A DNA stretch of 64,000 bases, taken from assembly GCA_945902075.1 (NCBI GenBank), contig CAMDMA010000001.1:124001-188000 (forward strand), read 5' to 3'. Numbering within the stretch: position 1 is the first letter of the stretch; every line of letters begins with the position of its first letter. This document shows positions 46,348-54,952 of this stretch, piece after piece. A program made the translations under genes and the position numbers. The notes below the pieces were generated by a model. It made no database searches. It was not told where the DNA came from and saw only the letters and a program-made list of their open reading frames with translations. Origin of the DNA: Candidatus Kuenenia stuttgartensis (lineage in GTDB: Bacteria; Planctomycetota; Phycisphaerae; Phycisphaerales; SM1A02).

Positions 46348-47142
46348 TCACTCCGCGCGCGTGATCCGCGGAGGTCCGAGTCGAAGGTGGGCGTAGGGCG
46401 AGTTCGGGTCGATCGAAATCGGCGCGAGATTTCCCTGGGTGTCGTGAGAAACCTCGATATTCGCCGTCGTATTCACGGTGAGCGGCGCGCGCGTGGCGTC
46501 GCTACGACGCTGCGTTTGCGCGTCAACGGCCGTCTCTGCAGTCGACACCGAATCCTTGTTGACCCGGGCATCCACACGCGATTCCACGCGCGATTCCACA
46601 TGCGATTCCACGCGAGGATTCGCACGAGGATCGACGCGGGAATCGACGCGCGCTGAGATTCTCGCATCAATGCGGCCCTTCACCGACGCGTTCGTCGGCG
46701 CAGGATCGGGAACGGTGTGCTGTGGCCCGGGCATTCCGATGTGAAACACCGTGCCAGCTGGTACCGCGAGGTCTTTGCGTTTCGAGTCACGCGTGTACAC
46801 GCTCTGCTCGAAGACCGCGAACAGCGCGCCGTTACCACGCATCAAAAGCGTGTCGCTTCCGGGCACGCGGTAGACGCGTTGAAAGCCCGTTGGAAGTCGC
46901 GGATCCAGCGGCGACATCCGAAGGGTCGTCGAAAGTTCGTCGGTATCCTCGGTGCCTTGTTCGACGATCTCGAGCGGCGGGCGCAGCGTTCCTGCAGCGG
47001 CGGTCCCCACCGTATCTGGGACAAGGCGAACCGGGCTTCCCGGGCGAAGAATCGCCCGCGGGTCCACGACTTGAACCTCCTGCGACACGGCGAGCGCGAG
47101 GCTGGTGAAGAGCGTGGAGAGCATGAAGTCAGCGCCGAGCAT
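46348..47142 (-). CDS. Exported repeat-containing protein of unknown function
   Basis: The 264-residue protein has a short hydrophobic start (FMLSTLFTSLALAVSQ) that could be a signal peptide. A folded-looking middle follows (RLVPDTVG, PLEIVEQGTEDTDELSTTLRM, YRVPGSDTLLMRGNGALFAVFEQSVYTRD), then a region (about 155-195) of short RVDSRVDPR/VESRVESR repeats. No domain is recognised. The first Met overlaps the end of birA by 14 bp; a second Met at 47124 begins just after the birA stop and is equally possible. It is the last gene of the HIT-nadC-birA unit. Confidence 0.6.
   Translation of the reverse strand: MLGADFMLSTLFTSLALAVSQEVQVVDPRAILRPGSPVRLVPDTVGTAAAGTLRPPLEIVEQGTEDTDELSTTLRMSPLDPRLPTGFQRVYRVPGSDTLLMRGNGALFAVFEQSVYTRDSKRKDLAVPAGTVFHIGMPGPQHTVPDPAPTNASVKGRIDARISARVDSRVDPRANPRVESHVESRVESRVDARVNKDSVSTAETAVDAQTQRRSDATRAPLTVNTTANIEVSHDTQGNLAPISIDPNSPYAHLRLGPPRITRAE
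46570..46665 (-). repeat. Degenerate 12-bp coding repeats (VDSR/VESR units)
   Basis: Around seven imperfect copies of a cgcgattccacg-like unit on the plus strand encode alternating Arg-Val-(Asp/Glu)-Ser residues on the minus strand. Confidence 0.8.
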
Positions 47143-47995
47143 TGTCGGGGATATCGGTCGCGACGGAGAGGTGACTTGAGCCGCGGACAACTCGACCTCC
47201 CCATTCGGCAACGCTCGTCGAAAATGCAGGCAAAAAACGGTCTCCAGAATCGGTGCGCACCACGAGGCCGCGCATCGGATCCACCGCGCGGACCTCACCC
47301 TCGACCGGACCCTCAGGCGTTGCGAACAGCGCCTTGGAACCGCGAAGCGCGTCGCGAGCGAGAAAGGCGGCAACCAGTACGTCATCGGCCGCAACGAGCG
47401 CGCGATCAAGGGCGGCGACAAGCGCGCACAGGACGTCAAGGCGATCCGTCTTCGCGCCGAGCATGGCAAGACTCGTGGCGCGCGATTCAAGCTCTCCCTC
47501 GAAGCGAGGCTGCGCGACGTTGATACCGATGCCGATGAAGGCGTACGCCGCGCGCGGGCTGGGCACGCCGCGCGACTCGGAAACGCCGCGGGTTTCAACT
47601 AGAACTCCCGCGAGCTTTCGCCCATGGACCACCACGTCATTCGGCCACTTGATACCCACACGCGCTCCAAGCGCCGTTTCGCATGCCTCTGCGGCGGCGA
47701 CGGCACTCGCAAGCGCAAGCCGCTCAATCGACTGTGCGTCCACCACAAAGGTTGCCGCCACGCCGCCGATCGCCGTGTCTTCCCAGTTTCGTCCGAATCG
47801 CCCGCGTCCGGCGGTCTGACGCCAGGTGGTCACGAGCGTGCCGCTCGCGGCATCGCGCGTTTCTTCCGCGTCTTGCGTGGAAGCGGTTTCTGCGAGCACA
47901 ACGGTGTTCCGAAAAAGTGCGCACTCAGCGCACGCCGCGTTCAGCCGAGGTTGCCAGTTTGCAAACGGCACAACCGGAACACTCGAGGGGCTCAC
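47129..47995 (-). CDS. birA: Biotin-[acetyl-CoA-carboxylase] ligase
   Basis: The 288-residue protein has the biotin ligase motifs TASTQDAEE, TWRQTAGRGRFGRNWED (biotinyl-AMP loop GRGRFGR), IKWPNDVVVHGRKLAGVLVE and IGIGINV. There is no N-terminal HTH domain, so it is a monofunctional ligase rather than a repressor. The C-terminal small beta domain (GPVEGEVRAVDPMRGLVVRTDSGD) is present. The start is a GTG overlapping the nadC stop (GTGA). Confidence 0.93.
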   Translation of the reverse strand: MSPSSVPVVPFANWQPRLNAACAECALFRNTVVLAETASTQDAEETRDAASGTLVTTWRQTAGRGRFGRNWEDTAIGGVAATFVVDAQSIERLALASAVAAAEACETALGARVGIKWPNDVVVHGRKLAGVLVETRGVSESRGVPSPRAAYAFIGIGINVAQPRFEGELESRATSLAMLGAKTDRLDVLCALVAALDRALVAADDVLVAAFLARDALRGSKALFATPEGPVEGEVRAVDPMRGLVVRTDSGDRFLPAFSTSVAEWGGRVVRGSSHLSVATDIPDNARR

Positions 47996-48951
47996 CGCTC
48001 GCCACCCGAAGTCGAGTCGAGATCGATTCCAAGATCAAGCGCGGGTGAAGAATGCGTGATGGCGCCGACGGAAATGCGGTCCACACCGCTCGCGGCGATC
48101 CGACGCACGGTGTCAAGCCGCACGCCACCAGATGCCTCAAGCAATAGACCCGGCGCGCGGGCATCACGACGCTTGACAGCTTCCGCGAGCGTACCTGGCT
48201 CCATGTTGTCGAGAAGAATCATGTCGAGCACTCCACCGTCCAGCTCGAGCAATTGATCAAGTTGCGCGAGCGAATCCACCTCGCACTCGACAAAAGCAAC
48301 ATCTGCCAGTGAGCGCGCGCGCATCGCGGCATCACGCACACGTCCCCCAATCGCGCCGTCAGCGAAAGCACCAAGATGATTGTCCTTGAGAAGCACCGCA
48401 TCAAACAGCCCAATTCGGTGCAGTGTCGCGCCGCCGCAGCGAGTTGCGTACTTCTGCAGCGTCCGCAAACCGGGCACCGTCTTGCGTGTGTCGCAAATGG
48501 CGGCGCGAGTCCCGCGAACTGCATCGACAAATTGCGCAGTGAGTGTTGCATTGCCCGAGAGGAACGTGAGGAAATTGAGCATCGTCCGCTCGTGCGAAAG
48601 AAGCGCAATGAGCGGACCTTCAAGCGTTGCAACGCGCGTCCCCCGCACAACGCGCGCGCCGTCATCGACATGCACCGCGAGCGAGAGACCCGCGTGGCGA
48701 GCAACGATCTCTGCAACGCGAAGTCCCGCAATCACGCCGTCACCTCGACTCGCAATCTGCGCGCGTCCTCGCGCATCAGGCGAAAGAGTCGAGAGACTGG
48801 TGATATCCCCGAGTTGCGTCATTACCCCAGCAAAACCGAGATCTTCGGCGAGTGCGCGGACGACCAACTCCTCGGCATCTGCACGCGCGAGTCGTTCGAA
48901 AAGTTCGGGGAGAGCGAGTGCACTCCAATCAATGCGGGCTTGTGTGTTCAT
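47992..48951 (-). CDS. nadC: Nicotinate-nucleotide pyrophosphorylase (carboxylating)
   Basis: NadC converts quinolinate and PRPP to nicotinate mononucleotide in NAD synthesis. The 319-residue protein has EDLGFAGVMTQLGDITS, SHERTMLNFLTFLSGNAT, the signature CDTRKTVPGLRTLQKYATRCGGATLHRIGLFDAVLLKDNH, and LEASGGVRLDTVRRIAASGVDRISVGAITHS. It overlaps both neighbours: its ATG overlaps the HIT gene stop (ATGA) and its stop overlaps the birA start. Confidence 0.96.
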   Translation of the reverse strand: MNTQARIDWSALALPELFERLARADAEELVVRALAEDLGFAGVMTQLGDITSLSTLSPDARGRAQIASRGDGVIAGLRVAEIVARHAGLSLAVHVDDGARVVRGTRVATLEGPLIALLSHERTMLNFLTFLSGNATLTAQFVDAVRGTRAAICDTRKTVPGLRTLQKYATRCGGATLHRIGLFDAVLLKDNHLGAFADGAIGGRVRDAAMRARSLADVAFVECEVDSLAQLDQLLELDGGVLDMILLDNMEPGTLAEAVKRRDARAPGLLLEASGGVRLDTVRRIAASGVDRISVGAITHSSPALDLGIDLDSTSGGER

Positions 48952-49358
48952 GCGTTCAACGCGGCCTTCATACGGTTCACGAGTTCGCCCGCGTGCGCGG
49001 AGTCGAGTTTTCCAGCGTTCCATCCAACGCCAAGTCCGGCGGAGCCGATCCGCGGGATGATGTGAAAATGCACGTGCATCACTGCCTGATGCGCCATCGC
49101 ACCATTGTTCTGAAGAACGTTGTAGGCAGTCGCGCCGGTGGCGGCGAGCACTGCGCGAGCGAGCCTTGGCAGTACGCGCCCAATGGCAGCGGCACTTTCA
49201 TCCGTGAGCTCGTGGAGAAATGCCTTCGCCTCTTTTGGGATGACGAGAAGATGACCTTCCGAGAGCGGACCAACGTCAAGAAACGCGAGCACATGCGCGT
49301 CTTCGTACACGCGGTGGCATGGAAGCTCGCCAGCAAGGATCCTGCTAAAAATCGTCAT
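48948..49358 (-). CDS. HIT (histidine triad) family protein
   Basis: The 136-residue protein begins TIFSRILAGELPCHRVYEDAHVLAFLDVGPLSEGHLLVIPK and ends with the triad HVHFHIIPR. It belongs to the Hint/HinT branch of nucleotide phosphoramidases. It is the first gene of the HIT-nadC-birA overlapping series. TACACT lies seven bases before the ATG, consistent with a leaderless transcript. Confidence 0.94.
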   Translation of the reverse strand: MTIFSRILAGELPCHRVYEDAHVLAFLDVGPLSEGHLLVIPKEAKAFLHELTDESAAAIGRVLPRLARAVLAATGATAYNVLQNNGAMAHQAVMHVHFHIIPRIGSAGLGVGWNAGKLDSAHAGELVNRMKAALNA

Positions 49359-49382: not shown

Positions 49383-50714
49383 TTATGGAAACACGCCGCG
49401 TAGCTCGTAGATCTTTCCGATGCGCTCAAGGCTCGCGCACAGTGCTGCGGTACGAAGGTCGCACTCGTATCGCGTCCGAGCAACCCGAACGCGTCGCGCT
49501 GCGAGTGTCATCTGACGACGAATATGGGCATCGATCTCTTCTTTGCGGAATGAAGGTTCATGGCGAACCTCGCGCCATTCGAGCGCGCTCGCGACGTCAA
49601 CCGCGGCGCCCGCAAGAATGTCAGGAACAATCTCAATGCCCTGACGAACAAGCACTTCCTCTGCATCTGCTGTCATATTCGCGCCGCCTGCCTCAACCAC
49701 GATGCGTGCGCGACAGAGTTCAGCTCGAGCCGTGTCGAGAGCGCCATCATCCGCACACAAGACAACGATCTCGCACGGGGCCTCCCAAAAGTCACGCTCA
49801 AGCACAGTTGTTGCTGCTTCAAATCCATCGATCCCACCCGTGCGCCCGCGATGCTGCGCAAGCGCGGCAACGTCAATTCCGCCTGGCTCGTAGAGCGCGG
49901 CACCAGAAGACAGCACCGCAGTCACGCGCGTTCCGCGTGCGGCGAGAGCTTTCGCCACAGCCGTTCCGGCGTGACCGAAACCCACGATTGCCGCACGCGC
50001 AGTTTCGAGTTCCATCATGGAATCACCGAGCAACTCGTCAAGAACTGCGATGAGGCCCGTCGCGTGCATACGCCCACGTGCACCGAAGCCACCGAGTTCA
50101 GTGGGCTTTCCCATCACCGTGCGTGATTGATCCTGTCGACTTGGCTCGGGCGTTGTCTGCGCGAGCGTGTCAAAAAACCATGCCATGACCTGACTGTCGG
50201 TGCCCGCATCTGGAGCGACGACGTCATACGCCGGACCGAGTTGATGGCTGATCGCGCTGCAGTACCGACGCGTCACGCGCATAAGTTCACCTTTCGACAA
50301 CTCACGCGGGTTCGCTTTCACGCCACCAAATGCGCCACCAAATGGCACACGCACAAGCGACGCGCGCATTGTCGCGAGAATCGCATGGCCCTTCACTGTG
50401 TCGAGCGCAAGTCGCGGCGCAAAGCGCACGCCACCGAGATACGGCCCAAGCGCGTTCGAGTGCTGCACGCGGTAGCCCTTGAACAGACGGTGGTTCCCGT
50501 CGTCCATCTGCACCGGAAACTGCACCATGACCTCGCTCTTTGGCTGTGTCAGGATGATCTGTTGATGATGGCGAAGCCCAACCAGATCCGCCGCGTACAG
50601 CAGGCGCTCGGCAGTTTCATGAAACAAATTTCCATGCTGCGGAGTGAGTCCAATGTCCTCGAAGATCCGCGACGCAGCAGAACGCAGGGTTTTGGTGACT
50701 GTCGACCGTTCCAT
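49383..50714 (-). CDS. Glu/Leu/Phe/Val dehydrogenase family paralogue lacking the catalytic lysine
   Basis: The 443-residue protein has the overall GLFV (glutamate dehydrogenase) architecture: an N-terminal substrate domain (FPVQMDDGNHRLFKGYRVQHSNALGPYLGGVRFAP) and a Rossmann domain (AAIVGFGHAGTAVAKALAARGTRV). The PROSITE active-site segment normally reads GGAKGG with a catalytic Lys; here it is PFGGAFGG, with Phe129. The substrate-binding Lys of the usual PAKGG is Leu93, and a third is Arg118. The Asp in the APD motif (DVVAPDAG) remains. It is therefore probably not a classical dehydrogenase. The ATG at 50714 has TATCTT six bases upstream. Confidence 0.85.
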   Translation of the reverse strand: MERSTVTKTLRSAASRIFEDIGLTPQHGNLFHETAERLLYAADLVGLRHHQQIILTQPKSEVMVQFPVQMDDGNHRLFKGYRVQHSNALGPYLGGVRFAPRLALDTVKGHAILATMRASLVRVPFGGAFGGVKANPRELSKGELMRVTRRYCSAISHQLGPAYDVVAPDAGTDSQVMAWFFDTLAQTTPEPSRQDQSRTVMGKPTELGGFGARGRMHATGLIAVLDELLGDSMMELETARAAIVGFGHAGTAVAKALAARGTRVTAVLSSGAALYEPGGIDVAALAQHRGRTGGIDGFEAATTVLERDFWEAPCEIVVLCADDGALDTARAELCRARIVVEAGGANMTADAEEVLVRQGIEIVPDILAGAAVDVASALEWREVRHEPSFRKEEIDAHIRRQMTLAARRVRVARTRYECDLRTAALCASLERIGKIYELRGVFP

Positions 50715-50828: not shown

Positions 50829-51788
50829 TCAACGTACGAACTTCACGCGCCCCCACCAACGTGGATCGTGCATGTCGATCTGCCACTGCGGAGTCCACAC
50901 CCAGTTGTCTTCTGGCTTGCCTTTCACCTTCTCATAGGCGGGCTTCGTCGCAGCTTGGGGCTTTGATGGTTCCTGATGGATGCTGTCATTGATTGGTGGT
51001 TCCGGCGTCTTTGGTGCAGTGGTTCCTTCAAAGTTGTGCGTCCACTGCACGCGCGAAAAGTTCACCCTCCACTCGTCGCCAGGTTTCGGAACTGCGGCGG
51101 CGCGCTCCCTTTCACCAAACGAGGGTTTGTCCCAAACGGGCGGCGTAAAGGCACTCCATGGAACAGCCCATTCAAGCGTCCAACCACGGTCCGTGTCGGT
51201 GGGGTCGTTTGCGGTGCCGTCGATGTGGACAGCGGTCTTCAAGCCCGCTGCGTTCCAGCCGTGCTCTGCAGGACCACCTTCCTTGTAACGGCGATGGAGG
51301 AACAGATCGAAAATGGTTTCGAAGATGTTGACCTCGAGCTCGTAGTACTCGCGCGCATCGCCATCCGGATCGATGAACACTTCGAAGTCGTTGTCCTGAA
51401 ACACGATTTCATCGTGCTTTTTCAGGGTTCCCCAGATATGCGGCTCCTTCAATTCTGCCGCAATATAAAAGTACGTTTCGTCCCAAATCATTTTGGCGCG
51501 CGTTCGATAGCGGGGCGCAGGAAGCGCTGGACCTTGGATGTCGACGAAATCGTCGGTCCACGCAGCGTCTTTCCATGCAGCGTCATCAAGCTTGCCATCG
51601 AGCACAGGGGCTGTTGCAGTAAAGCGGCAGTCGTAGCACTTCGGTGGAGAGAGCGGCTTCTGCGGCGTCGCGTCTCCCGCCGGGGGAAACGGTGCGTCAG
51701 GCTTCACCGATTGCGCGGACGCAAACGGAAATGCGGCCAGACTTAGGGAGGCGAGGATGAGTGCGGCAAGGGCACGGGTTTTCAGCAT
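50829..51788 (-). CDS. Exported CBM9-like (DOMON/carbohydrate-binding) protein
   Basis: The 319-residue protein has a signal peptide (LAALILASLSLAAFPFASAQ) and a family 9 carbohydrate-binding-type domain: APVLDGKLDDAAWKDAAWTDDFVD, AKMIWDETYFYIAAELKEPHIWG, DNDFEVFIDPDGDAREYYELEVNIFETIFDLFL and GWTLEWAVPWSAF. Such domains are frequent in planctomycete secreted proteins and may bind sugars. The ending NFSRVQWTHNFEG...PQWQIDMHDPRWWGRVKF is typical of this group. It is divergent from the GH57-like gene, suggesting joint use in glycan handling (inference). TATCCT is six bases before the ATG. Confidence 0.82.
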   Translation of the reverse strand: MLKTRALAALILASLSLAAFPFASAQSVKPDAPFPPAGDATPQKPLSPPKCYDCRFTATAPVLDGKLDDAAWKDAAWTDDFVDIQGPALPAPRYRTRAKMIWDETYFYIAAELKEPHIWGTLKKHDEIVFQDNDFEVFIDPDGDAREYYELEVNIFETIFDLFLHRRYKEGGPAEHGWNAAGLKTAVHIDGTANDPTDTDRGWTLEWAVPWSAFTPPVWDKPSFGERERAAAVPKPGDEWRVNFSRVQWTHNFEGTTAPKTPEPPINDSIHQEPSKPQAATKPAYEKVKGKPEDNWVWTPQWQIDMHDPRWWGRVKFVR

Positions 51789-51794
51789 TCGAAC

Positions 51795-51800
51795 AGGATA
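51795..51800 (-). promoter_or_regulatory. -10-like box for leaderless CBM9-like gene
   Basis: TATCCT on the minus strand, six bases before the ATG at 51788. Confidence 0.45.
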
Positions 51801-51877
51801 CTGAAAGCCTAGGAATCGAGGCCTTTGACACAGATCACGATTGCTCGAATCGTGAACAGGATGCACACTCCTGGCTC

Positions 51878-54800
51878 ATGAAGCTCACGCTCACTTGCCT
51901 CAGCGTCGCCGCCACGATCGCCACGCCAGCTGTCGCGGAGAAGACGCACTTCACCTACCTCTGGCACATGGAGCAGCCGATCTACTGGCCCGATCGCCAA
52001 GCGGGCACCCAACGCTACGAGCGAGCATGGCAGTCAATTCTCCGCAAAGACGCGGGTGCTGCACATCCGGAAAACGATCTACGCGCGATCTTTGGACTTG
52101 ATGATCGCGTCGCGGCCTACCAGTACCGCCCGCGCGATACGGTTGGTGCAATTTCGTGGGCGAGCGAAGCTGGCGCGCAGGTTTCGTTTAGTGGCGGACT
52201 CATCGCGAACATCCAGAGTTTCGCAGAGGCGGGCGGGCAACTTGGCTACTCGACAGCCTGGTACGCGCCGTGGCGTGAATCACGTAATTGGCAGACGAGT
52301 ACGCCAGGCACCGACTCACCGCGCATGGACATCGTGATGTTCTCGTTTCATCACGCGCTGCTCCCGCTGATCGATGGCGATGCCGTGCGCAAGGAATTGG
52401 CGGTTTACAAGGAGATCTATCCACAGGCCTGGGGCGCAACGCCCACGGTTTCGCGTGGATTTTTCCCAAGTGAAATGGCGTTTTCAACGCGGCTTATCCC
52501 ATATCTCGCCGAAGCCGGCATCGACTGGGCGTTTGTATCTGGCGAAAAAGTTTCGCGTGCATGTGCGCAGTTTCCCGTGACCTACGGGTCGGGCGGAATC
52601 AACTGCGATCCGCCAAACAAGGCTGATCAACTGAACCCCGCGCAGACGAATTACAGACGCATCTCGATCTCGCGCGGTTGCGGGCCTGCCGAAGCTGTTC
52701 CGTTTGCCTTCACGCCGCATCGCGCGAAATACGTGCATCCCGAAACTGGTGCAGAGAGTTTCGCCACTGTGGTCCCATGTTCACAGCATCTCGGATGGCT
52801 CGATGGCTACAACCCGATGTCCACCAACGAACTTGGTGCGCTTGAGCCCTACAACAACCCGTCGCGACCGATGCTTGTGGTGCTCGCGCACGATGGCGAC
52901 AACGCATGGGGCGGTGGCTATTCGTATTACATGGAAGCGGTTCCGAACTTCGTTTCGACTGCGGAATCGCAGGGATACAGAGCAACTGTTGTGCAAAAGT
53001 ACCTTGCCGATCATCCAGTGCCCGCAGGTGATGTGGTGCATATTGAGGATGGTGCATGGGTCAACGCTGACGGCGACTTTGGAAGTCCGCAGTTTCTTAA
53101 TTGGAACTGGCCGCCGGTACTTGCCAACGGGACAATCGATATCGCAAATGGCTGGGCGGAGGACATCCGCAACTGGGCAGTCATCACCGCCGCGCAGAAC
53201 TATGTTTCGACCGCCGAGGAGATCCATGCCGCGCAAGGCATGCCAACCCGCACCGCGCAGATTCTCGCGCCCAACACTGCGAGCCGCGCAAGCGAACGTG
53301 CGTGGCACTTCTTTCTCGGGAGTTTAAACTCCGGCTACATGTATTACGGCACTGCTGTCGACATGGAGGTAAAGCCCACGATCGCGTGCAACGACGCAAT
53401 TGCCGAAGCAATCTCAGTCATCGGTACAGGTGTGGGTGATGCGACGGCGCCAACCGTGTGGATTCCCCAGCGTTTCCCATGGAATCCAGGCTCAACCAAT
53501 TTTGGCCCGCAATACGGCTATCAGCAATACCAGTCGAATGGCGACTTCAAAGTATGGACCTTTGTGCATGATGTCTCAGGGACGCAAACGGTCACGCTTC
53601 GGTACCGCCTTGACGACGACGGAGAGAATCCGCTCGCAAACAACGCAAACGAGTTGTACGCGCAGACCGCGGGCGTTGGTGCATGGCAGTCGATCGTGAT
53701 GACGCGACGCGCATTTCCGGCGGGAAACTATTTCAATTCGAGCAGCATCAACTTTTTCGAGATGCCCACGGCGATTGCTGATCAGTTTCACGCAGAGATC
53801 ATCGGTATACGATCGACACTCGTCGATTACTACGTCGAGGCGTCGGATGCGCGCGGGAACGTGCGGAAGAGCCCGATTCAACATGTGTGGGTTGGTGACG
53901 GGTCCGGGAGCGGCGGCGGCGGAACAGGTGCGACCGTTGTCGTCACGCCAGACCCGCTCATCGCAGGCGGCACGGCGACAGTGAGCTACGCGCCGCAAGG
54001 TGGTCCGCTTGCGAATGCCGCCACAGTGAAACTGCACTACGGATTCGATGGTTGGCAACAGGTCGCGAGCCCGGATGCCACGATGACATGGAATACGAAG
54101 TCTGCGCGGTGGACCGCGTCAATTCCCGTGTCTTCGACAGCGAATCAGTTCGATCTTGTCTTCAACAATGGCGCGGGCGTCTGGGACAATAACGGCGGCG
54201 GCGACTGGCATTTTTCCGTTACCGGAGGTCAGCCTCCCAATACGTGGACGATGGACGGCGCACGCGATACCGATGCCGTCGAGGTCGCGGTTAACGGCGC
54301 GCGCCACCTCTGGTCGGGCATCAAAGGTACGACGCTTTACGTGGCCACCGAAGACGCGGGTGAGGGCGACGACGTGTTTATTTTCGTCGCGAACGCGCGT
54401 GGTGCGCTTCGCGCAGCACCGTGGGCAAAGTCGGGACAGACCGCTGCATGGACGGCGTTTCTCGCCGACGAAAACGAGAACGATTACGAGGGCTGGTTCA
54501 ATGCAGCCGGTGGCGCTGCGAGCGGCGCATGGAATATTGCTGCCGCAACTGGCGCGAATGGCGGAGTCGTCGAGGGGACGATTGACCTCGCGGCTACCTT
54601 TGGTGTCGTGCCCGACTCATTGTGGCTCGCGGTCGGACCGTACGCGACAGGTACGGGTGGCATGCTCAGGACACTGGCGCAAGTACCCGCGAGCGTCAAT
54701 GGCAACACCACGCTCGATGCTGCGGAGTACGTCGAGGTGGCCGTATGTGCGATCACCATTCCTACAAGCGGCTCGGCGACTGGCGCGTGCTGCAGAGCGG

Positions 54801-54952
54801 ACCTCGACGCCGACGGTTTCGTTGGGGCGGCTGACCTCAGCATGCTTCTCGGCGCATGGGGGACGGCGGGCGGAGCTGCGGATCTCGACGGCGACGGCAC
54901 CGTGGGCGCCGCCGATCTTGCGGCGCTGCTTGGTACGTGGGGCGCTTGTTGA
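51878..54952 (+). CDS. Secreted GH57-like glycoside hydrolase with CBM25 module and dockerin-like tail
   Basis: This 1024-residue protein has a signal peptide (LSVAATIATPAVAE) and a GH57-type catalytic region starting FTYLWHMEQPIYWPDRQ. A segment FFPSEMAFSTRLIPYLAEAGIDWAFVSGE carries the probable nucleophile Glu, and AHDGDNAWGGGYSYY the probable acid Asp. A starch-binding CBM25-like module follows (about 690-785: VTPDPLIAGGTATVSYAP, VKLHYGFDGWQ, NNGAGVWDNNGGGDWHF), then a second beta domain. Two Ca-loop repeats end the protein (DLDADGFVGAADLSMLL, DLDGDGTVGAADLAALL). GH57 enzymes are alpha-amylases, branching enzymes or amylopullulanases, so an extracellular alpha-glucan substrate is likely; the exact activity is inferred. 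Confidence 0.8.
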   Translation: MKLTLTCLSVAATIATPAVAEKTHFTYLWHMEQPIYWPDRQAGTQRYERAWQSILRKDAGAAHPENDLRAIFGLDDRVAAYQYRPRDTVGAISWASEAGAQVSFSGGLIANIQSFAEAGGQLGYSTAWYAPWRESRNWQTSTPGTDSPRMDIVMFSFHHALLPLIDGDAVRKELAVYKEIYPQAWGATPTVSRGFFPSEMAFSTRLIPYLAEAGIDWAFVSGEKVSRACAQFPVTYGSGGINCDPPNKADQLNPAQTNYRRISISRGCGPAEAVPFAFTPHRAKYVHPETGAESFATVVPCSQHLGWLDGYNPMSTNELGALEPYNNPSRPMLVVLAHDGDNAWGGGYSYYMEAVPNFVSTAESQGYRATVVQKYLADHPVPAGDVVHIEDGAWVNADGDFGSPQFLNWNWPPVLANGTIDIANGWAEDIRNWAVITAAQNYVSTAEEIHAAQGMPTRTAQILAPNTASRASERAWHFFLGSLNSGYMYYGTAVDMEVKPTIACNDAIAEAISVIGTGVGDATAPTVWIPQRFPWNPGSTNFGPQYGYQQYQSNGDFKVWTFVHDVSGTQTVTLRYRLDDDGENPLANNANELYAQTAGVGAWQSIVMTRRAFPAGNYFNSSSINFFEMPTAIADQFHAEIIGIRSTLVDYYVEASDARGNVRKSPIQHVWVGDGSGSGGGGTGATVVVTPDPLIAGGTATVSYAPQGGPLANAATVKLHYGFDGWQQVASPDATMTWNTKSARWTASIPVSSTANQFDLVFNNGAGVWDNNGGGDWHFSVTGGQPPNTWTMDGARDTDAVEVAVNGARHLWSGIKGTTLYVATEDAGEGDDVFIFVANARGALRAAPWAKSGQTAAWTAFLADENENDYEGWFNAAGGAASGAWNIAAATGANGGVVEGTIDLAATFGVVPDSLWLAVGPYATGTGGMLRTLAQVPASVNGNTTLDAAEYVEVAVCAITIPTSGSATGACCRADLDADGFVGAADLSMLLGAWGTAGGAADLDGDGTVGAADLAALLGTWGAC

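Follow-up and report, generated by a model that had tools for sequence, protein, structure and literature searches.

Does a gene that reads as a glutamate dehydrogenase (GDH) along its whole length, with phenylalanine in place of the catalytic lysine, encode an enzyme, and if it does not, what is it kept for? We addressed this question for a locus on the minus strand of a 64,000-nucleotide stretch of planctomycete DNA, referred to here in its entirety as the window. The original prediction, made from the letters alone, described the product as a paralogue of the GLFV dehydrogenases that had become a pseudoenzyme, for example a regulator or an NAD(H) sensor, or that catalyzed a changed reaction.

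Results

The window protein has a GDH fold and lacks the active-site lysines

The ORF of 443 amino acids starts with an ATG at 50714 and ends with a stop codon at 49383-49385. In a Pfam search, PF02812 (E 3.9e-44, 149.9 bits) and PF00208 (E 1.1e-37, 130.5 bits) both exceeded their gathering scores and together covered most of the protein, which places it in the GLFV dehydrogenase superfamily. The NCBIfam models for GDH stayed far under their cut-offs (best 254.7 bits versus 620), and the closest sequences in the PDB were hexameric GDHs. An AlphaFold2 model computed from 13 sequences (mean pLDDT 79.7, pTM 0.82) matched GDH chains with TM values of up to 0.85 on the query. With both domains present, an uninterrupted frame, and a model that matches GDH chains, the full-length GDH fold of the original prediction was confirmed.

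The GDH mechanism requires a catalytic lysine and a catalytic aspartate. Residue positions of the window protein were placed by alignment with relatives (Table 1), and we refer to them by K89, K113, and K125, which we take to be the clostridial numbers of the two substrate lysines and the catalytic lysine, and by D165 for the catalytic aspartate; proteins with K/K/K/D at these positions are called live below. The position of the catalytic lysine of active hexameric GDHs is occupied by Phe129. The plus strand reads AAA at this codon, which is TTT on the coding strand, so that the predicted GGAFGG could be read directly. Neither substrate lysine is present: the alignment bears out Leu93 at the lysine of PAKGG, and the other lysine had rightly been called an arginine, with the wrong number (Arg118 instead of Arg117). 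The catalytic aspartate is there, as Asp169 of the APD motif. Among the coenzyme motifs, GxGxxG is present, and two other elements are not: the aspartate at the end of β2, an acidic residue that presumably holds the coenzyme ribose, and the asparagine of EGAN, both invariant in 32 live rows of the alignment, are replaced by Ser269 and Gly344. The claim that the Rossmann domain and the APD aspartate remain thus stands for the glycine motif and Asp169, whereas the contacts to the coenzyme are eroded. Further changes at sites invariant in the same 32 rows are Met201 for the threonine of TGKP, and Val372 for glycine and Ala377 for tyrosine, both near what we take to be the serine of the C-terminal substrate site. 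Judged by its residues, the window protein is very probably a pseudoenzyme.

Table 1. Coordinates of the pseudo-GDH gene, its informative residues, and its neighbours in the window
Feature	Position	Strand	Remark
birA-like biotin/lipoate ligase family gene	47129..47995	minus	
nadC (quinolinate phosphoribosyltransferase)	47992..48951	minus	
HIT-family hydrolase gene	48948..49358	minus	downstream neighbour
Predicted pseudo-glutamate-dehydrogenase gene	49383..50714	minus	443 aa, stop codon included; ORF and Pfam
C-terminal RGVFP	49386..49400	minus	equivalent C-terminus lines leucine pocket in Thermus GDH
Gly344	49683..49685	minus	position of Asn in EGAN coenzyme motif
Ser269	49908..49910	minus	position of acidic residue at β2 end
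Rossmann glycine motif GFGHAG, residues 245-250	49965..49982	minus	kept
Asp182	50169..50171	minus	equivalent of Thermus GDH leucine-site Asp; 66/66 clade
Asp169	50208..50210	minus	catalytic Asp position, D165 type; Glu in 5/11 genus copies
Arg150	50265..50267	minus	equivalent of Thermus GDH leucine-site Arg; 66/66 clade
Phe129 codon TTT	50328..50330	minus	catalytic Lys position, K125 type (GGAKGG)
Arg117 codon	50364..50366	minus	substrate Lys position, K113 type
Leu93 codon	50436..50438	minus	substrate Lys position, K89 type (PAKGG)
CBM9-like protein gene	50829..51866	minus	upstream neighbour

Loss of the catalytic pair extends over ten genera

Searches of 61 genomes and then of the family of 181 genomes led to orthologous loci, and 87 of them were fetched. 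The window genome (G000) belongs to genus g1; many of the genomes are incomplete MAGs, and each absence reported below is weaker for that. Sixty-six loci come from ten genera that yielded no live form (g1, 11 copies; g17, 4; g50, 1; g60, 10; g55, 14; g18, 7; g2, 1; g62, 1; g6, 2; and g41, 15), 19 are live, and the other two belong to g9 and g42; a g60 fragment (G197, residues 12-108) falls outside the fetched set. The catalytic lysine is gone in 52 of the 66 clade copies and the catalytic aspartate in 40, and no copy keeps both. Position 129 holds alanine in 23 copies, phenylalanine in 17, lysine in 14, tyrosine in 10, and methionine and cysteine in one each, and it is uniform within genera (Phe in 15/15 copies of g1 and g17, Ala in 15/15 of g41, Tyr in 10/10 of g60). 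At position 169, 26 copies have aspartate, 24 glycine, and 16 glutamate. All three lysines are absent from the 10 other g1 copies found and from the four g17 copies; these two genera are the only ones without the substrate lysines (15/66), and K89 and K113 are both kept in the remaining 51 copies. The coenzyme site shows a mixed state, with GxGxxG kept in 66/66 copies, neither aspartate nor glutamate at the end of β2 in 22/66, and the EGAN asparagine retained in 11/66. Orthologue search and alignment thus agree with the original prediction, in that relatives within the genus do not keep the lysines and the loss is common to all 11 g1 copies. Because independent assemblies carry the same residues, sequencing error is removed as an explanation.

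Genus g55 (14/66) retains the catalytic lysine and has glycine at the catalytic aspartate in 14/14 copies. Inactivity is less certain there than in the rest of the clade, as only the aspartate is lost; these copies (L040, L041, L046, and others) possibly represent an intermediate state. The catalytic lysine is also lost in L016 of g9, which has serine and lies outside the clade, and in L102 of g42, an unplaced fragment with alanine.

The closest live relatives (g61, g45, g47, and others) are 41-51% identical to the window protein. All 19 live relatives examined read K/K/K/D, and most have another immediate neighbourhood. A GTDB scan gave at least 582 confirmed relatives, and among the best 80 of these, 69 read K/K/K/D. 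The remaining 11 of the best 80, which stand outside the trees, have the residue signatures and the neighbours of the clade; nine have planctomycete titles, including MAGs from Baikal and Lac Pavin, and the titles of the other two are uncultured bacterium and Chitinophaga pinensis. Two contigs with a pseudo-GDH of the g60 type, L120 and L122, bear the titles Chitinophaga pinensis and Phycisphaera mikurensis NBRC 102666 and look mislabelled.

The clade is nested among live planctomycete GDHs

Trees were computed without the four trait columns. The first left out the fragments L100, L101, and L102 and the distant paralogues L104-L107, and the second was built from 65 chosen rows. The clade copies formed one group in both trees (64 clade rows, SH-aLRT 96; 41 clade rows of 65, bootstrap/SH-aLRT 98/95), nested among live planctomycete GDHs, and the nearest live genus was g61, with moderate support (SH-aLRT 88; 92/89 in the second tree). 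Parsimony on the 65 rows gave three changes for the presence or absence of the lysine and two for the live or dead state. Neither a tree with all lysine-less clade rows as one group (p-AU 0.23) nor one with g55 and g60 as one group (p-AU 0.21) was rejected; the lysine may have been lost once or several times inside the clade, both courses being compatible with the tree tests.

The clade shares a gene neighbourhood

Of the 64 clade loci with a 1-kb flank, 59 have a CBM9-like gene no more than 500 bp upstream, compared with none of 18 live loci in the family and none of 13 in the other families of the order. On the downstream side, a HIT gene occurs within the same distance in 54 of 57 clade loci, 1 of 17 live loci in the family, and 0 of 12 live loci in the order's other families, and nadC or birA is found downstream in 54 of 57 clade loci. 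HIT is on the same strand as the pseudo-GDH in 36 of these 54 loci and on the opposite strand in g55, g60, and g2, so that a shared operon is not general. The original prediction had taken the nearby nadC as a hint; this hint proved weak: both HIT and nadC/birA follow in most clade loci, but the strand of HIT flips in three genera. In the live loci L114 and L115, HIT, nadC, and birA lie 1.8-5.0 kb downstream, which suggests the same ancestral region.

Two other genes of the window were noted. On the other strand, a GH57-like protein (51761-54952) adjoins the CBM9-like gene; its match to a starch-binding module stays below threshold, and its C-terminus carries a repeat that resembles a dockerin by eye. 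At 46348-47160 there is an ORF with no Pfam match and a run of Arg-Val-Asp/Glu-rich repeats, whose relatives follow birA in g41, g60, G001, and G003.

The gene is under purifying selection and can be lost

Median NG86 dN/dS values of the pseudo-GDH were 0.112 in g1 (55 pairs), 0.049 in g17, 0.046 in g18, 0.078 in g41, 0.074 in g55, 0.083 in g60, and 0.098 in g6 (one pair). These ratios are rough, because dS approaches saturation in several groups, with 27/105 pairs saturated in g41. Live GDHs of g45, g47, g54, and g61 gave 0.029-0.184, and the neighbours in the genera of the clade 0.114-0.323 (nadC), 0.148-0.293 (birA), 0.056-0.125 (HIT), and 0.065-0.163 (CBM9). The constraint on the pseudo-GDH is therefore stronger than that on the adjoining nadC and birA and about equal to that on HIT, whose dN/dS is the lower of the two in g1. 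The pseudo-GDH is under purifying selection and is not drifting. With no internal stops and a loss common to the orthologues, these ratios uphold the view that the frame is intact and decay unlikely.

No copy was found in 5 of the 16 g1 genomes searched. G003 (97% complete) has HIT, nadC, and birA on a 122-kb contig without a pseudo-GDH; G001 also has the three genes, and the 1 kb left before its contig ends gives no match to a GDH. The job of the pseudo-GDH is thus dispensable, as the gene is missing from some members of the genus, and cleanly so in G003.

A large GDH accompanies the pseudo-GDH

With the window protein as the query, 65 of the 66 clade genomes gave a single match, and the extra match in the remaining one, G139, proved to be a 46-residue terminal fragment of this type of protein; the search found no second small GDH. 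That the window holds no second GDH, as originally stated, is accurate for the window and incomplete for the genome, which has one large GDH and one other PF02812 match, a fragment that resembles Leu/Trp dehydrogenases and is cut by the contig end. This gene (L002:1447-1929, contig 70 of G000) sits beside an ORF that by eye resembles an acyl-CoA dehydrogenase.

The large GDH (PF05088), of about 980-1130 aa and of an architecture different from that of the small GDH, was matched in 160 of the 181 family genomes; a match is present in 62 of the 66 clade genomes, compared with 11 of the 19 live ones (Fisher p 0.00045, kinship ignored), G192 being scored as lacking it because no PF05088 row matched. 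It is also present in G003, G024, G026, G029, G030, and G061, none of which has a small-GDH match. GGAK, GPDE, and EGAN are intact in the four large GDHs read, those of G000, G065 (clade), G202 (live), and G003. Since these motifs are intact in all four, the copy of the window genome among them, catalysis has probably moved to the large GDH. The copy of the window genome is an ORF of 1131 aa (L205:1449-4844, contig 15 of G000), whose residues 173-439 weakly match PII-uridylyltransferase models and may form an ACT-like region.

No GOGAT match (PF01645) above 100 bits was found in the ten genera, and their weak matches of about 20-30 bits are taken for other proteins. GOGAT is patchy over the 181 genomes, exceeding 100 bits only in g5, g8, g19, g22, g44, g48, g49, g51, g57, and g58. 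No alanine dehydrogenase match above the cut-off was found in g1; some genomes of g41, g55, g50, g62, and g2 have one. The sole glutamine synthetase match of the window genome (G000:C52:9744-10277) scores 78 bits, is restricted to model positions 21-195, and sits in a frame of 765 aa, perhaps a GlnN-type enzyme. The idea that these genomes have no route from ammonium to glutamate and that the pseudo-GDH secretly makes it was dropped when the large GDH was found.

The leucine site is kept, and the protein resembles Thermus GdhA

Residues equivalent to the leucine site of Thermus GDH are kept throughout the clade (Table 1). Arg439 is present in 63/63 and Pro443 in 62/62 of the clade rows with a letter there, and Arg439 is found in 100% of clade rows and 87% of live rows. 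As the leucine-site residues are equally conserved in live relatives, they may be structural rather than ligand-binding. Overall, 48 sites, including the C-terminal Pro443, are at least 97% conserved in live and clade rows alike, and 29 sites conserved in live rows are lost in the clade. The lost sites include the catalytic pair, the surroundings of the catalytic aspartate, the EGAN asparagine, and the GGVxVSYFEW segment, and some have no known role. On the alignment, this pattern is the one expected of a regulatory shell, and the residues kept may again be structural.

Thermus thermophilus GdhA is described as a catalytically inactive, regulatory protein that forms a hexamer of four GdhA and two GdhB, and a figure legend there assigns chain A of PDB 3AOE to GdhB (PMC9570180). 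Chain 3aoe_E, a GdhA chain, reads GPAKGG, MTLKAA, GGAAGG, and LGPDLGAD, that is, K/K/A/D. The GdhA chains of 3AOE (those other than A and B) share with the window protein the GDH fold, the loss of the catalytic lysine, and the leucine-site arginine and aspartate (Arg150, Asp182, and RGVFP in the window protein); as in g41, they have GGAAGG, and GPDxGAD instead of PAPDxxT. GdhA differs in that it keeps the K89 and K113 lysines, both lost from the window protein, and in that it has a catalytic partner, GdhB, whereas searches of the clade genomes turned up no small catalytic GDH. The clade, moreover, is nested inside the planctomycete GDHs. Of the 50 fold matches listed, chains 3aoe_C and 3aoe_D were the most similar in sequence (35% identity), and GdhA ranked 3rd among the PDB matches for the active-site stretch and 18th for the stretches of the coenzyme domain and the N-terminus. 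Since GdhA is no closer than other GDHs in these last two stretches by sequence search, the likeness looks convergent, although the top identity of its chains among the listed fold matches speaks against this. A Thermus-style heterohexamer with a second small GDH was rejected because the partner gene was not found in the 66 genomes, which keeps the window protein out of the GdhA system.

Discussion

We found no report of a planctomycete pseudo-GDH among open-licence papers. The protein described here is a clade-wide, selected pseudoenzyme, and we infer that its job is most likely regulatory or sensory. Loss shared by the orthologues, together with purifying selection, argues for a pseudoenzyme and against a decaying gene, as the original prediction had it.

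On balance, we lean toward a GDH-shaped protein without catalysis that is kept for a noncatalytic job. A small GDH of the hexameric type would have lost catalysis and been retained for such a role, the large GDH having taken over the chemistry and so freed it. The hexamer might bind leucine or a similar molecule at the intersubunit allosteric site and change shape, and this change would act on a partner protein in the manner of a regulator. For a regulatory or sensor role as such, we see the chances as evenly balanced, and leucine is a doubtful candidate for the ligand. Tentatively, the protein may be a stand-alone amino-acid-sensing regulator with the GDH fold, which has held the oligomer and the allosteric pocket while the catalytic residues eroded in a different way in each lineage and which acts without a small partner.

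Could the pseudo-GDH instead be a regulatory subunit of the large GDH, bound to it as GdhA is to GdhB? The similar replacements in Thermus GdhA, the top identity of two of its chains among the listed fold matches, and the high share of clade genomes with a large GDH would fit. We nevertheless consider this unlikely: a small catalytic GDH that would correspond to GdhB was not found in the clade genomes searched, the large GDH has another architecture and also occurs in G003 without a small GDH, and sequence search shows no special closeness to GdhA beyond the active-site stretch.

It is rather improbable that the protein is still an enzyme of altered chemistry whose pocket of Phe129, Arg117, and Leu93 acts on another substrate. 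The GDH mechanism needs the lysine and the aspartate; position 169 is not aspartate in 40/66 copies, and the window protein has lost its coenzyme contacts. The lysine has been replaced in five ways (Phe, Ala, Tyr, Met, and Cys) that vary by genus, which speaks against one shared new chemistry, and the changed reaction of the original prediction has lost ground on that account. On the other hand, residue 129 does not vary within any clade genus that contributed more than one copy, most copies keep K89 and K113, and dN/dS is low, as would suit an active site in use.

Improbable, too, is a remnant of moonlighting, in which the ancestral GDH bound a transcription or ribosome factor and the second role alone was kept. 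GDHs with such roles are published. RocG and GudB of Bacillus subtilis are GDHs that also inhibit the regulator GltC (PMC6794564), and YwlG of Staphylococcus aureus, a possible pseudo-GDH, binds HPF (PMC9522360). A remnant of this kind would explain how catalytic loss was tolerated while the surface was held. The analysis points to no partner gene, however, and for GOGAT, whose genes are under GltC control, no match in the clade genera exceeds 100 bits; RocG and GudB, which share a regulatory role with our proposal, also differ in being active enzymes. YwlG is likened here by description, as a GDH-related protein; the same source reports that, as a recombinant protein from E. coli, it has no dehydrogenase activity by itself and that its overexpression can make up for lost GDH activity (PMC9522360).

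The NAD(H) sensor of the original prediction is very improbable, even with GxGxxG kept in every clade copy and nadC nearby: Ser269 and Gly344 replace contacts invariant in the live rows, and the clade at large often lacks the β2 acid and mostly lacks the EGAN asparagine. Decay or assembly error, for which the gene's absence from some members of the genus might be cited, can be dismissed, given a dN/dS of 0.11 in g1, no stops inside the frame, and the same residues in independent assemblies.

The Thermus precedent works beside an active small GDH, whereas the ten-genus clade was found with the inactive form only. The clade is thus a natural experiment on the noncatalytic functions of a central metabolic enzyme, and its proteins could allow the allosteric site to be studied in the absence of turnover. 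For annotation, such genes should not count as glutamate dehydrogenase in metabolic models of these planctomycetes, and the large GDH should be considered.
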